Virus record (IMG/VR): IMGVR_UViG_3300008110_000428
Span: 1 to 23,320 of that record
Length of the DNA: 23,320 bases
From: a virus
Reading direction: 5' to 3' (one strand)
The notes under the pieces were generated by a model. The model saw nothing but the letters and a program-made list of their open reading frames with translations, had not been told where the DNA came from and ran no database searches. The translations under genes and the position numbers were made by a program. Positions 5,125 to 18,303 of this stretch are shown here, piece by piece. Every line of letters begins with the position of its first letter. Position 1 is the stretch's first letter.

Positions 5125-5379
5125 TTAGTATTCTTCTTCTTCTTCTTCTTCTTCAGGCTTATATTCTTCATGTGGCTCAGCGTCCACTTTGAAGAAAATA
5201 GCCCTTAGAGCATTATACGCACCCATCGCATCTTTTCCAGCTACCGCATCAAGAAGGTCTTGGCCAAGGGCTTCACATTCATCGCGGTCACTAGATCCTT
5301 CATCCTCTGTCTTTAAATCTTGGCCATGCATCATCGAAACGATGACGGTAGCCGCTTTCTTTTTGTCAGGGATGATCAT
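5125..5379 (-). CDS. Small acidic protein with poly-Glu tail (84 aa)
   Basis: An 84-aa protein of unknown function in the capsid-to-connector interval. ATG 5379 overlaps the TGA of the preceding gene (ATGA), so expression is coupled to the capsid-associated protein. The first 20 residues are basic and hydrophobic; the middle is helical (ALGQDLLDAVAGKDAMGAYN, about 37-56); the end is strongly acidic, with eight consecutive Glu then Tyr, encoded by an uninterrupted (GAA)8 tract. Small acidic phage proteins of this layout occur beside capsid genes. An assembly or chaperone-like role is inference only. Confidence 0.7.
   Translation of the reverse strand: MIIPDKKKAATVIVSMMHGQDLKTEDEGSSDRDECEALGQDLLDAVAGKDAMGAYNALRAIFFKVDAEPHEEYKPEEEEEEEEY
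5131..5154. repeat. (TTC/GAA)8 trinucleotide microsatellite in coding sequence
   Basis: Eight exact TTC repeats on the + strand encode the Glu8 tail of the acidic protein. In-frame slippage would change tail length without breaking the frame. Confidence 0.95.
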
Positions 5380-14308: not shown

Positions 14309-14548
14309 TGCCCAGCTGATTTGGACTAAGCGCTTGCCCTGCTCGGCTAGCTGTACCTGAGTTTGATAGCCCAGCACGGATAGGATGGGCAGGATGGCAT
14401 CTGCATCTACTTCCCGTAGGACTACCCAGTCAGAGTACATCCCTTTACGTGCAGCGCTCCTAATAGCCTTTTCTGCCATCTCCATGGCCTTGGCAGGGTT
14501 AGCAGCGTTGGCCTCGTCGGCCATGGCTTTGGCTTCGCTAGCGTTCAT
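14306..14548 (-). CDS. Small helical protein, 'ISW' family member A (80 aa)
   Basis: An 80-aa protein with an Ala-rich helical N-terminus (ASEAKAMADEANAANPAKAM, 3-22), then AIRSAARKGMYSDWVVL and a C-terminal ILPILSVLGYQTQV...RLVQISW. The pattern I..AA..G.YS ... GY/F ... ISW recurs in the 95-aa gene at 14806-15093, so the two look like divergent paralogues. Small proteins ending in a GY...I.W strand are common in phages, but I cannot name a function. ATG 14548 overlaps the upstream TGA (TGATG); SD is AAGGAAGGGA. Confidence 0.7.
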   Translation of the reverse strand: MNASEAKAMADEANAANPAKAMEMAEKAIRSAARKGMYSDWVVLREVDADAILPILSVLGYQTQVQLAEQGKRLVQISWA

Positions 14549-14775
14549 CAGTGCATCCCTTCCTTTGCCTCAGCTTCTTGTAGCACCCCACAATAGATGT
14601 AAGCCTTAAGGATCATGTTAGCTGCAAAGGCTAAAGCAGGGATTAGGCTTGTATAGGTCTCCTCGATATTCTTTTCCTGCTCATGATCGTAGTACCTCAC
14701 CACTACCTGCTCATCATCTAGCCTCTCAAACTCAAACCTAGCTCCCATAGGCATTTGCCAAACTAACTTATCCAC
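14548..14775 (-). CDS. Unknown small protein (75 aa, GTG start)
   Basis: GTG 14775 has an AAAGGTG SD 5 nt upstream. The product has an N-terminal beta segment (RFEFERLDDEQVVVRYYDHE, 13-32) and a C-terminal hydrophobic helix (SLIPALAFAANMILKAYIYC, 43-62), possibly amphipathic or membrane-associated, then a charged end. No family recognised. It overlaps the following gene by a TGATG junction and follows the 95-aa gene by 30 nt, so it belongs to the same leftward operon. Confidence 0.65.
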   Translation of the reverse strand: MDKLVWQMPMGARFEFERLDDEQVVVRYYDHEQEKNIEETYTSLIPALAFAANMILKAYIYCGVLQEAEAKEGMH

Positions 14776-14805
14776 AATTACACCTTTGAATTTTTATAGG
14801 GTGCA

Positions 14806-15093
14806 TTACCATGAAATCACTGCATATTTTTTGCCCATTAAGGGCACTCCACCTTGCCAACCCCATGTAATATTAAAACCCATGGGTTCATATATATTTT
14901 TTATGTTCCTTTCTATTCCAGATACTCCCTTTTCTGCCTCAGAATAATACACAGCACTGTAATCGCCTTGTTCAGCTGCCTCTAAAATCAGTTCATCAAT
15001 GTCTTGTTTCAACAATCGTTCCAGCCCAGCGTTGGTGTTATCGCTTACTGCCCTAGCTACCTTCGCAGTCAATGATCCTTGCTCAGTTGTCAT
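14806..15093 (-). CDS. Small protein, 'ISW' family member B (95 aa)
   Basis: First gene of the leftward operon that ends in the lipoprotein. ATG 15093 has a strong GAGGAG SD. The 95-aa product has an N-terminal helix (SLTAKVARAVSDNTNAGLER), then LILEAAEQGDYSAVYYSE and a Gly/Trp-rich C-terminus ending GKKYAVISW. It shares the I..AA..G.YS and terminal ISW pattern with the 80-aa gene two positions downstream. Function unknown. Confidence 0.7.
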   Translation of the reverse strand: MTTEQGSLTAKVARAVSDNTNAGLERLLKQDIDELILEAAEQGDYSAVYYSEAEKGVSGIERNIKNIYEPMGFNITWGWQGGVPLMGKKYAVISW

Positions 15094-15175
15094 GCTGTCT
15101 CCTCTTCCAGTGGGGCGGGATATACCTTGCTGCTCATTTAACAGGCAACAGCTTTATCAGGTTGGTGGCTAGGTT

Positions 15176-15224
15176 GGTTGCTGGCAAGTTGTTGGGTTGC
15201 TGGCAAGTTGTTGGCAAGTTGTTG
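15176..15224 (+). repeat. Tandem 19-bp direct repeats (GGCAAGTTGTTG core)
   Basis: Two exact tandem 19-bp units (15176-15194 and 15195-15213) and a third 12-bp core at 15213-15224. They form the left cluster of the candidate origin. Confidence 0.9.
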
Positions 15225-15247
15225 AGATAAGTAACTGATATCATTCT

Positions 15248-15375
15248 GGTTGTTGGAGTTGACGCCAAAAAGGGGGGGTCTACTTTCTCTAGAGAGAGAG
15301 TACTGTCTATATACCTATACACATACATACACCTGTATACATATATATATAAATATATACATCAACTCAACAACC
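15248..15375. repeat. Long-range inverted repeat around AT-rich core
   Basis: Arms 15248-15262 and 15362-15375 are reverse complements except for one extra G. The 99-bp interval holds a G7 run (15272-15278), a (GA)n stretch and the TATA-rich core. Confidence 0.85.
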
Positions 15376-15411
15376 TACAACAATATCAAAAACTTATACA
15401 CGACAACATAC

Positions 15412-15441
15412 CCAACAACTACCCAACAACCTACCAACAAC
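15412..15441 (+). repeat. CCAACAAC iterons with 11-bp period
   Basis: Exact CCAACAAC at 15412-15419, 15423-15430 and 15434-15441. Even spacing near one helical turn suggests binding of a protein array on one DNA face. Confidence 0.85.
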
Positions 15442-15447
15442 CGAGAC

Positions 15448-15475
15448 AAAAAAAAGCCTTCAGACTACTGAAGGC
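15448..15475 (-). terminator. Rho-independent terminator of the helicase operon
   Basis: Leftward reading: GCCTTCAG (15475-15468), loop TAGT, CTGAAGGC (15463-15456), then eight T (15455-15448). It starts 25 nt past the helicase stop and separates the replication genes from the candidate origin. Confidence 0.9.
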
Positions 15476-15499
15476 CTAATGACTGGTATCAAAATGATA

Positions 15500-16879
15500 C
15501 TACCTGATGTTTTGCTGGTCGGTGCGAATGTAAAGAGGGTTGATCGAAACACCTATGCCCTCCCACCAGTAATCGACGTGGTTAGTCCCTGGTCGTTTGC
15601 TGCCCTTCAATATAAATCTCTCACCTAACCACTTCTTAAAATCTAAGCGTTCTTTTTTTGTAGAAAAATGATCACAGATTAATTCCCACATTATTCCCCT
15701 AGCTGTCTTTAACTCTGGACTAACTACGCAATATTTTTCAATAATAAAATGATATGGAGTTTCATTGTCATCAATAATGCTATTAATAGAATCAGTTGAG
15801 CGTTTTATAAGCTCATTATTAGGGCAATAGTCTAAATACAATTCTATACATTTGCTAATAAAATAAGGTAGTTCTTCTCGTAACAGATCGTCATAATGAG
15901 ATTGAGGCTCACCAGAAAAAGGTTTCCATTCGCAATAAATGATCCGCCTTTTGTCGGATATCTCAGAGCTAATCCCTGGCTTGCTGTTTGAGACAAAGAT
16001 GAGCTTGGCCATGGGTTTGATCGTAAATACTCGCCCACCCTTCTTTTCCACCCTGATCGAATCATTGCCGGTTAGGGACTTGAGAAGGCCACTTGTAACG
16101 AACGAGGTGTTATTGGTGTCTGGGAATACTACTAGCCTGGCATCTTTAATACTGTAGGTCCAAAATCTGTCGTTGAAGCTCGGCTCAACTTGACTCGAAA
16201 AGGTATGCTTTAAGACTTCGCCTAAAAGCTCGACAAAAGTCCCCTTTCCATCGTTACCTTTCCCGTACATCCAAACGTATTGTTGCCTGTTAGACTTAGG
16301 AAAAAAAAGACTACCTACGAAAATCTTGAGAGCTAACCCATTGTCTATCCTGGAAAACATCTCATCAAATAAAGGTGTAGGTCCATTTTCCAGCTTAAAG
16401 GGCAGCCTCCTCATAACGAGGTGATCGTCACCCTGAAATCCATATAATGGTGGGGTTTCAATGGAAGGTGTTACCTTGGACCAGTATTTAACAGCTCCCT
16501 CAATATGTTGAGCTGTCATGTCTAGCAAGTCCCTAAACTCACCATGAACCACGCCTGAAATTTGTTCTTCTACGGCGTCAAGATGACAGTCTACTAAGTC
16601 ACGATCAGGGGTGACTTCGTAAAGCTGTTTTGAACCATCCAAACTTCTCAAAAAAACGAATGATTTTGATGGCTTTTTTAGTTTAATGCCATTTTGTTCC
16701 ATCCATTCGCAAACATTCCCGTTTAGCCAGTCAGCAAACAGAGCTTGTTTTTGGGCGGAGCTAAGTGAGGTAGGATTTTTTCCGGTAGAAGACTTTTTTC
16801 TGTCTGCGTTTTTCTTATCGGAGCGTTCTTGCAGGTTATGAATAGTTCCAAGATTGCCCTTGTTTTCTACATCTGGCAT
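15500..16879 (-). CDS. SF3-type replicative helicase (D5/P4-like)
   Basis: I use ATG 16879 (AAGGTGG SD), giving 459 aa; a GTG 13 codons upstream is less likely. The C-terminal ATPase shows SF3 motifs: Walker A GKGNDGKGT (206-214), Walker B-like RLVVFPDTN (248-256), and motif C KLIFVSNSKP (292-301) with the sensor Asn, then DKRR (309-312) with a probable Arg finger. The N-terminus is basic and low-complexity, followed by a helical accessory domain. SF3 helicases of this type unwind phage or plasmid origins as rings. The upstream neighbour encodes an AEP-like primase, so the two likely act as a split primase-helicase. It is followed by a terminator and the candidate origin. Confidence 0.85.
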   Translation of the reverse strand: MPDVENKGNLGTIHNLQERSDKKNADRKKSSTGKNPTSLSSAQKQALFADWLNGNVCEWMEQNGIKLKKPSKSFVFLRSLDGSKQLYEVTPDRDLVDCHLDAVEEQISGVVHGEFRDLLDMTAQHIEGAVKYWSKVTPSIETPPLYGFQGDDHLVMRRLPFKLENGPTPLFDEMFSRIDNGLALKIFVGSLFFPKSNRQQYVWMYGKGNDGKGTFVELLGEVLKHTFSSQVEPSFNDRFWTYSIKDARLVVFPDTNNTSFVTSGLLKSLTGNDSIRVEKKGGRVFTIKPMAKLIFVSNSKPGISSEISDKRRIIYCEWKPFSGEPQSHYDDLLREELPYFISKCIELYLDYCPNNELIKRSTDSINSIIDDNETPYHFIIEKYCVVSPELKTARGIMWELICDHFSTKKERLDFKKWLGERFILKGSKRPGTNHVDYWWEGIGVSINPLYIRTDQQNIR

Positions 16880-16929
16880 GATACAACCACCTTCGCATGG
16901 ATACAGGGTTTGATACACCCACGAATTGA

Positions 16930-16966
16930 TTGACCAGTAAGCGCTAACTACTGGTCAATTTTTTTT
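16930..16966 (+). terminator. Rightward-facing terminator or palindromic operator between primase and helicase
   Basis: Perfect 10-bp arms TTGACCAGTA (16930-16939) and TACTGGTCAA (16949-16958) with a 9-nt loop, followed on the + strand by eight T (16959-16966). In this orientation it terminates rightward transcripts, yet both neighbouring genes run leftward. The T-tract includes the end of the primase gene. Confidence 0.65.
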
Positions 16967-17765
16967 AGCTTTCGACAAAACGCTTTAAGGCGCTTGTGTA
17001 CGTAGTTTCTAATTCGTGGTCGGAAAACTCAGCCCTATCAAACGGCGAATTCCTCAAAAGTTCAAGGACTTTTTGGGCTGGGGTTCCAACGTTAAGTAAT
17101 TCTAACGTTGAAACATAAATAGAAATATTACGGCCATGCCCAAAAGTTATGCCTTTCTTAATAAAATTATCAACATGATTAGGTATTCTATTGCCTTTAT
17201 GTTTAACATAAAGTCTCATCGCATCTTGAATGGTTACAGATGGTTTTTCCACAGCTTTTACAGGCTGTTTAAAGCCATCAAAGTTAGCGAAGACGATCTT
17301 TTGGCAGGGATAAAACGCCCTTGTGGCATCCTTGCAAATACTGTCGAAAGCTTCATTGATCTTGAGGATTCTAGTTACGTTGTACTCATATTCCTCAATC
17401 GTCTCAATCCTGCGTTCCCATTGGGTGATAATTCTAAAGCGATCCTGAGGCGGGTAGACCGTGTCTTTAGTGAATTTCTCCTTTTGGTGACTGCGAGTAA
17501 TGCCAATCACACAAGCTGAATCACACCAGTCCTCAATGGCTTGAGCCAGCGGATAGATCACTTCTCCTGTATTATCGACGTCAAACCCAACAAAGTCTGA
17601 AAACAGGAAATTAGCTTTCGCTCTGTACGGTTCCTTTAAGGCGGCAGGAATCCAAGTGTATCTTGTGGCAATCGCTCCCAAATATCTTAAATCTAAATGC
17701 TCCAAGTTCTTGAAGCCCTTAGCAAATTCGTATACCCCTGGTACTATTGGGTAATAGGCAGCCAT
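16965..17765 (-). CDS. AEP-family primase-like protein
   Basis: The start is set at ATG 17765 (266 aa; GGAG SD); a 31-codon N-terminal extension would enter the divergent resolvase gene and lacks support. The N-terminal region shows archaeo-eukaryotic primase-type motifs: FDVDN (61-65, metal-binding DxD), ITRSHQ (89-94, sxH motif) and QDRFRII (107-113, third motif region). The C-terminal part is helical, with GHGRNISIYVSTLELLN and a PFDRAEFSDHELETTY segment typical of primase C-terminal domains fused or adjacent to SF3 helicases. It would make RNA or DNA primers for the downstream helicase. The family assignment rests on motif reading only. Confidence 0.7.
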   Translation of the reverse strand: MAAYYPIVPGVYEFAKGFKNLEHLDLRYLGAIATRYTWIPAALKEPYRAKANFLFSDFVGFDVDNTGEVIYPLAQAIEDWCDSACVIGITRSHQKEKFTKDTVYPPQDRFRIITQWERRIETIEEYEYNVTRILKINEAFDSICKDATRAFYPCQKIVFANFDGFKQPVKAVEKPSVTIQDAMRLYVKHKGNRIPNHVDNFIKKGITFGHGRNISIYVSTLELLNVGTPAQKVLELLRNSPFDRAEFSDHELETTYTSALKRFVES

Positions 17766-17796
17766 CTCGTGATCTCCATGTGAAGGAGTTTTATAT

Positions 17797-18303
17797 ATGC
17801 TGATCGCCGGTATCGATCCAGGCAAAAGCGGAGCATTAGCAATTGTCCAGGACGGCAAGATTATAGACTACGCCCTACTTGCTAATGTAGTGCCACGATA
17901 CTGGCTCCTTGAGCGCAAGTGTAAGATTGTCTATATCGAGCAAGCGCAATCATTCCCAAAGCAAGGGATTGCTTCGGCTTTTAATTACGGTCGGGATTTT
18001 GGCTATATGCTGGGAACACTCGCAGGTTCAGGAATGATCATTCATCTAGTACGTCCTGCAGTGTGGGCTAAGCGGATCCATCAGGGCTCTCCAAAAATAG
18101 ACGATGCCAAAGAGCGGAGCCTGTGGTGTGCTCGCCATCTTTGGCCTGAGAGGTCTTTTCTTGCCACGGAACGCAGCTCTAAACCGCACGATGGCTTGAT
18201 CGACGCTGCCCTTATAGCCCACTACGGCTATCTTAATGAGCTAAGCCCAGCGGCTTTGCAGAGCTGCCCCGCAATAGACCCAGACGCTCCAATTCTAGAT
18301 TGA
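17797..18303 (+). CDS. RuvC-like Holliday-junction resolvase
   Basis: A 168-aa RNase H-fold nuclease. Motifs: AGIDPGKSGALAI (4-16, catalytic D7), IVYIEQAQSFP (44-54, E48), and HDGLIDAALIAHYG (131-144, D132 and D136). All four acidic residues expected of RuvC-type resolvases are present, and the size is similar to bacterial RuvC. It would resolve branched DNA before packaging, fitting with the RecT-type annealing protein at 20.9 kb. The SD is AAGGAG 8 nt before ATG. It is transcribed away from the primase gene with only 31 bp between start codons, and its last 71 nt overlap the convergent SNase-fold gene. Confidence 0.85.
   Translation: MLIAGIDPGKSGALAIVQDGKIIDYALLANVVPRYWLLERKCKIVYIEQAQSFPKQGIASAFNYGRDFGYMLGTLAGSGMIIHLVRPAVWAKRIHQGSPKIDDAKERSLWCARHLWPERSFLATERSSKPHDGLIDAALIAHYGYLNELSPAALQSCPAIDPDAPILD

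Follow-up and report, generated by a model that had tools for sequence, protein, structure and literature searches.

A candidate SaPI/PICI-type replication origin directly downstream of the helicase gene in an uncultured phage with its own virion genes

The window analysed here is a stretch of 23,320 bp, positions 1 to 23,320 of the partial IMG/VR record IMGVR_UViG_3300008110_000428. Another record of this phage, 3300031951_001173 (24,230 bp), showed 99.8–99.9% identity to the window and overlapped both of its ends (positions 1 and 23320), and joining it to the window closed a circular map of 34,496 bp. This second record begins 38 bp inside the 3′ end of the helicase gene, adjoining the candidate origin. 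The window phage encodes TerS, TerL, a portal protein, a major head protein, tail proteins, an endolysin, a RecT-like protein, a Holliday junction resolvase, an endonuclease-like protein, a putative primase and a helicase. Inspection of the ORFs read recognised neither a DNA polymerase gene nor an integrase, and Rfam and tRNA scans found nothing. A (TTC)8 microsatellite was observed in the structural gene cluster (window 5131–5154); read on the minus strand, it encodes the poly-Glu C-terminal tail of an 84-aa protein.

The helicase gene (15500–16918, minus strand) encodes an SF3 helicase of the P4 family (primase_Cterm, DUF5906), which is the proposed initiator. Its product matched TIGR01613 (7.5e-20, below the curated cut-off), PF19263 (2.6e-18, above the cut-off) and a PHROG DNA primase family (4e-22). 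The putative primase gene (16965–17858, minus strand) was assigned from AEP-like motifs seen by eye (FDVDN and SHQ) and from weak matches to PHROG primase/helicase families, and it is conserved in the two relatives described below. As called, the primase ORF overlaps the opposite-strand resolvase gene (17797–18303); the relatives point to the ATG at residue 31 (17768) as the probable true start, and a start at this position removes the overlap. The AlphaFold models (mean pLDDT of 30 for the helicase and 42 for the primase) lacked the quality needed to reveal a C-terminal DNA-binding domain or winged helix, and a profile search against PDB sequences gave no real match. Searches of IMG/VR with the helicase and the primase returned only the window phage itself and the same two relatives, and a search of GTDB genomes with the primase gave no match.

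The helicase gene ends directly at a 406-bp intergenic gap (15094–15499), which separates its stop codon from the start of the next, late-side gene (14806–15093, minus strand), which encodes a 95-aa protein of unassigned function. An intrinsic terminator of the helicase transcript, consisting of a 10-bp stem and a T run (15454–15477, minus strand), lies between the helicase stop and the nearer of two repeat arrays. A first-pass annotation, made from the sequence alone, had proposed an iteron-type origin in a gene-free stretch downstream of the helicase and primase genes; the position was borne out, and no convincing gene was found anywhere in 15094–15499. A DNA search of the region against phages gave no match.

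The gap contains the word GTTGTTGG (at most one mismatch) in seven plus-strand copies at the left and five inverted copies at the right. The left array, GTTG(T/C/G)TG(G/A), occupies 15161–15256 on the plus strand, with starts at 15161, 15177, 15188, 15196, 15207, 15218 and 15249 (spacings of 16, 11, 8, 11, 11 and 31 bp). The right array, (C/T)C(A/T)ACAAC, occupies 15367–15441 on the minus strand, with starts at 15367, 15374, 15412, 15423 and 15434, the last three copies being at an exact 11-bp pitch. Every left copy is oriented rightwards and every right copy leftwards, with an AT-rich core between the two convergent arrays; the most frequent spacing, 11 bp, is about one helical turn. Two smaller repeats that the first-pass annotation had singled out were found as described: a 19-bp tandem within the left array (GGTTGCTGGCAAGTTGTTG at 15176–15194 and 15195–15213, 100% identical), after which a third copy follows in 11-bp register, and CCAACAAC every 11 bp at the right (starts 15412, 15423 and 15434). 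Its outer limits, 15176–15441, enclosed these repeats but were slightly narrow, since a GTTGTTGG copy at 15161 falls outside them, and a further copy lies inside at 15249. Similarly, its 15-nt inverted pair around the core is present (15188–15202 and 15360–15374, 87% identity), but longer arms of 30 nt exist (15195–15224 and 15413–15442, 83%).

We scanned the whole 34.5-kb circular map for words that recur in two arrays facing each other, and the gap was the top-scoring region of the genome, well ahead of every other. The gap scored 9 for 6-mers, compared with at most 5 elsewhere (4 in a coarser rescan), 8 for 7-mers, compared with 4 elsewhere (0 in the coarser rescan), and 11 for 8-mers with one mismatch, compared with 7 elsewhere. 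None of 300 shuffles of the gap equalled its convergent array, and none of 2000 dinucleotide shuffles matched the observed six GTTGYTG and four CARCAAC. These scans revealed no second GTTGTTGG array in the map. Exact-pattern matches to GTTGYTGGCAAGTTGTTGG were rejected, as by eye they resembled unrelated coding sequence, and they had no facing copies.

Between the arrays lies the AT-rich core (TATATACCTATACACATACATACACCTGTATACATATATATATAAATATATACAT, 15306–15363), a proposed DNA unwinding element that is nearly free of G on the plus strand. According to nearest-neighbour stability, the weakest 50-bp duplex of the 34.5-kb genome is 15309–15358 (−50.1 kcal/mol; genome mean −68.0, s.d. 4.7). From 15306 to 15442, the plus strand contains exactly two G residues (15335 and 15402), the number given in the first-pass annotation, and no other stretch of the window limited to two G comes close to it in length.

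Two IMG/VR relatives with a common gene order, G002 (L010) and G003 (L011), were used for comparison. G002 shared 82% identity with the window phage in terL, 87% in the portal protein and 57% in the primase; its helicase was too diverged for BLAST and gave a weak DUF5906 match only. G003 shared 79% identity in terL and 46–48% in the helicase. The gap after the helicase gene of G002 contains that genome's best convergent array of exact 7-mers (GTTTGAC, 3 + 2 copies; reached by 0 of 300 shuffles), although the gap became unremarkable in the scan once mismatches were allowed. The G003 gap failed the exact-word scan and carries a loose facing GTAGT/ACTAC set (8 + 2 in a 400-bp window, against a mean of 0.8 per 400 bp), a count equalled at a second GTAGT-rich place, which is a coding Thr-rich repeat. 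The homologous gaps include the weakest 100-bp duplex of the G003 contig and the third weakest of G002. In each of the three genomes, the longest single-strand stretch with at most two G falls within this gap, measuring 137 nt in the window phage, 109 nt in G002 and 71 nt in G003, where it leads other stretches by a small margin. In the comparison of repeats among sister phages proposed in the first-pass annotation, G002 keeps the facing layout with a different word; G003 retains the weak, strand-asymmetric core but has only the loose set. At the level of sequence, the layout is conserved in G002 with a changed repeat word, and weakly in G003.

More distant carriers of the helicase family were also considered. 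Eleven records from a tblastn helicase list were put through the convergent-array scan, and the six in which the helicase gene is followed by a gap of at least 268 bp entered the 6-mer count: Lacticaseibacillus phage R23.1, Leuconostoc phage LLC-1, the Streptococcus satellites Javan434 and Javan419, Staphylococcus PI-Sepi-HH2, and phiSP119-3. For every one of these, the top-scoring 6-mer facing array at the locus sits in the post-helicase gap, a count to be read knowing that the carriers are partly non-independent (two Javan satellites, two staphylococcal elements) and that intergenic DNA is prone to repeats. At least five different words occur across the six (GGACAC, TTATTG, TTATAC, AGACAC and TTGGAA). 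The full-size cultured phage phiSP119-3 carries a facing TTGGAAG array of the PICI type (4 + 3 copies, L080 3790–4066), and it is a complete phage with terminase, portal, capsid and tail genes. The other five carriers have no gap or a short gap after the helicase gene: the scan detected no convincing facing array in the Silvanigrella phage, Finalfrontier or VEsP-2, a modest array overlapping the 121-bp gap of Mischief19, and a strong GGACAG array (5 + 5) two genes downstream of the helicase in Rhizobium phage RR1-A (L076 5822–6245), likewise a full-size cultured phage with facing iterons of the PICI type. As a whole, a gap lies directly 3′ of the helicase stop in the window phage, G002, G003 and loci L044, L045, L047, L075, L077 and L080.

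The alpha protein of phage P4 belongs to the same helicase family (TIGR01613, primase_Cterm). Phage P4 uses two separated sites, ori and crr. The window phage differs in having one compact gap, and a distant second array of the P4 type was not found in the 34.5-kb map. The closest resemblance is to the SaPI/PICI origin, in which, according to PMC6092414 (Fig. 2) and to PMC7581432 citing Ubeda et al. 2007, two iteron sets flank an AT-rich presumed melting region 3′ of rep. The C-terminal domain of SaPI Rep recognises iterons directly downstream of rep (PMC7581432). As in SaPIs and PICIs, the region in the window phage lies directly 3′ of the rep helicase gene and has short facing iteron sets around an AT-rich region; the iteron word varies between elements, and the primase and helicase may be separate or fused. 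The PICI-type initiator, an SF3/D5 primase_Cterm helicase with an adjacent primase gene, is likewise present, the primase being called on weak matches, and the window matches all of the sequence-level features, with 7 + 5 facing copies around the weakest helix of the genome. It differs in that one strand of the core and right array is almost devoid of G over about 137 nt, and in that the region belongs to a phage of about 34.5 kb with terminase, portal, capsid and tail genes, not to a satellite. PICIs lack a capsid, portal and terminase set of their own and depend on a helper, whereas TerL, TerS, portal and major head protein are all encoded here; with virion genes of its own, the window phage is not a PICI. 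SCCmec Cch2 is also similar, being a D5/P4-type helicase whose C-terminal domain binds direct repeats just downstream of its gene, but the Cch2 site contains three 5-nt iterons, and the inverted repeats there are dispensable for binding (PMC7581432); moreover, SCCmec, a cassette of staphylococci, has a different polymerase.

We consider it very probable, judging from sequence, that the gap at 15094–15499 is the replication origin of the window phage and that it is of the SaPI/PICI type. Position, architecture, duplex stability, the layout in G002 (and weakly in G003), the distant carriers and the SaPI/PICI precedents all support the iteron-type origin that the first-pass annotation had suggested. 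The gap is most likely bound and melted by the phage's own helicase. We infer that the P4-family SF3 helicase would bind the iterons through its C-terminal domain, that two facing helicase rings would assemble on the GTTGTTGG arrays, and that the TATA core would then melt. Each ring would travel outward on one strand, and the phage primase (16965–17858), together with a host DNA polymerase, would begin bidirectional synthesis. The C-terminal part of the helicase is its least conserved portion (25% identity, compared with 60% in the ATPase), in keeping with a domain that recognises a variable iteron word.

A different kind of origin is found in pRN1 and Bordetella phage BIP-1, where an element also follows a terminator directly 3′ of a primase/SF3 replication gene (PMC4234260), and pRN1 requires a 100-nt stem-loop after the terminator, downstream of its primpol-SF3 gene (PMC4234260). 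By analogy, the inverted arrays of the window phage might extrude or fold into one very long stem-loop, the structure of which would be recognised by the initiator. The minus strand of 15155–15450 indeed folds far better than shuffled sequences (z = −8.8), as does the G002 gap (z = −5.5), but any two facing iteron arrays would fold in this way by construction, and the G003 gap yields a composite fold only (z = −3.1). In addition, pRN1 and BIP-1 have one conserved long stem-loop, whereas the window has helically spaced facing iterons: its repeats are also direct, at helical pitch, and include scattered copies (15161, 15249 and 15367) that a hairpin does not need. Folding by itself does not separate the two kinds of origin; overall, we regard a stem-loop origin as improbable.

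The first-pass annotation had also suggested that the two halves of the region could be Rho-entry (rut) sites. On such a reading, outward G-poor, C-rich RNA would recruit Rho and stop antisense transcription or attenuate the late operon. The composition that the annotation described is present in the window, where the arms read outward contain 31 C/3 G and 37 C/10 G, but the C-richness is not conserved in either relative (13 C/19 G and 25 C/14 G in G002; 20/18 and 20/17 in G003). Moreover, relative to the operon, the G-poor strand is the antisense one in both the window phage and G003, and the sense one in G002. This flip between relatives argues against a role at the RNA level, while a DNA element could survive it. 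The helicase transcript already has its intrinsic terminator at 15477–15454, and a Rho-entry function appears very unlikely. We attach equally little weight to the proposal that the gap is a promoter/operator region of the late operon, with the repeats serving as operators for a phage regulator rather than as an origin. Because the gap lies between an early transcript that has been terminated and the opening gene of the next same-strand module, it probably contains a promoter; however, no sigma-70-like promoter was found on the minus strand, and operators would account neither for arrays that face each other around the genome's weakest helix nor for their recurrence after SF3 helicases in unrelated phages. 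A late-operon promoter in the gap could coexist with origin function. The chance of a packaging (pac) or partition site is close to negligible: the region is gene-free and repetitive, lies about 2 kb from terS and adjoins the start of the second assembly, but its repeat word differs between relatives while terS and terL keep 57–82% identity, its layout follows the helicase and not the terminase, and no parA-like gene was recognised.

Cumulative GC skew, which the first-pass annotation had named as a check on the origin, showed no minimum at the region (raw minimum at 34465, detrended minimum at 749 and maximum at 14397 of the 34.5-kb map), nor was there an extremum at the G002 gap; skew is uninformative here because nearly all genes lie on one strand. 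DnaA boxes were not enriched (17 observed versus 21.8 expected, allowing one mismatch), with two one-mismatch boxes in the gap. One exact DnaA-box consensus, TTATCCACA, is located at window 14768–14776, about 320 bp outside the gap.

The two-iteron-set origin was described in 2018 as common to all PICIs and as present in ‘no other known bacterial replicon’. The SaPI/PICI-type layout is already published; what is new is its occurrence in a phage with its own virion genes, and the type is not confined to satellites. On balance, we lean towards the view that origins of this kind are general to P4-family (SF3) initiator helicases, among them those of complete tailed phages such as the window phage and phiSP119-3, and that the iteron word and the helicase C-terminal domain are rewritten in concert. 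This suggests that a layout thought to be special to satellites would belong to the whole helicase family. If the layout is general, origins would be predictable in many phages from the gap after the helicase gene, and the variable word and the fast-changing helicase C-terminus would form a testable specificity system. The gap and helicase also provide a concrete, cloneable candidate origin and initiator for an uncultured phage group in which most genes lack a functional assignment.

In a dozen or so other viral contigs, three to four copies of CCAACAAC stand at an exact 11-bp pitch ahead of (GAAAAGAAT)n-like repeats, in a single orientation; these contigs include L060 (6460–6500), L063, L064 (7073–7103), L065 (863–903), L068 (1771–1801) and L070 (5526–5566). 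In the three that were checked (L060, L068 and L070), the CCAACAAC array is embedded in the gene for a small protein with the look of an O-like/DnaD-like initiator. These one-orientation arrays are possible gene-embedded origins that share the word of the window phage.
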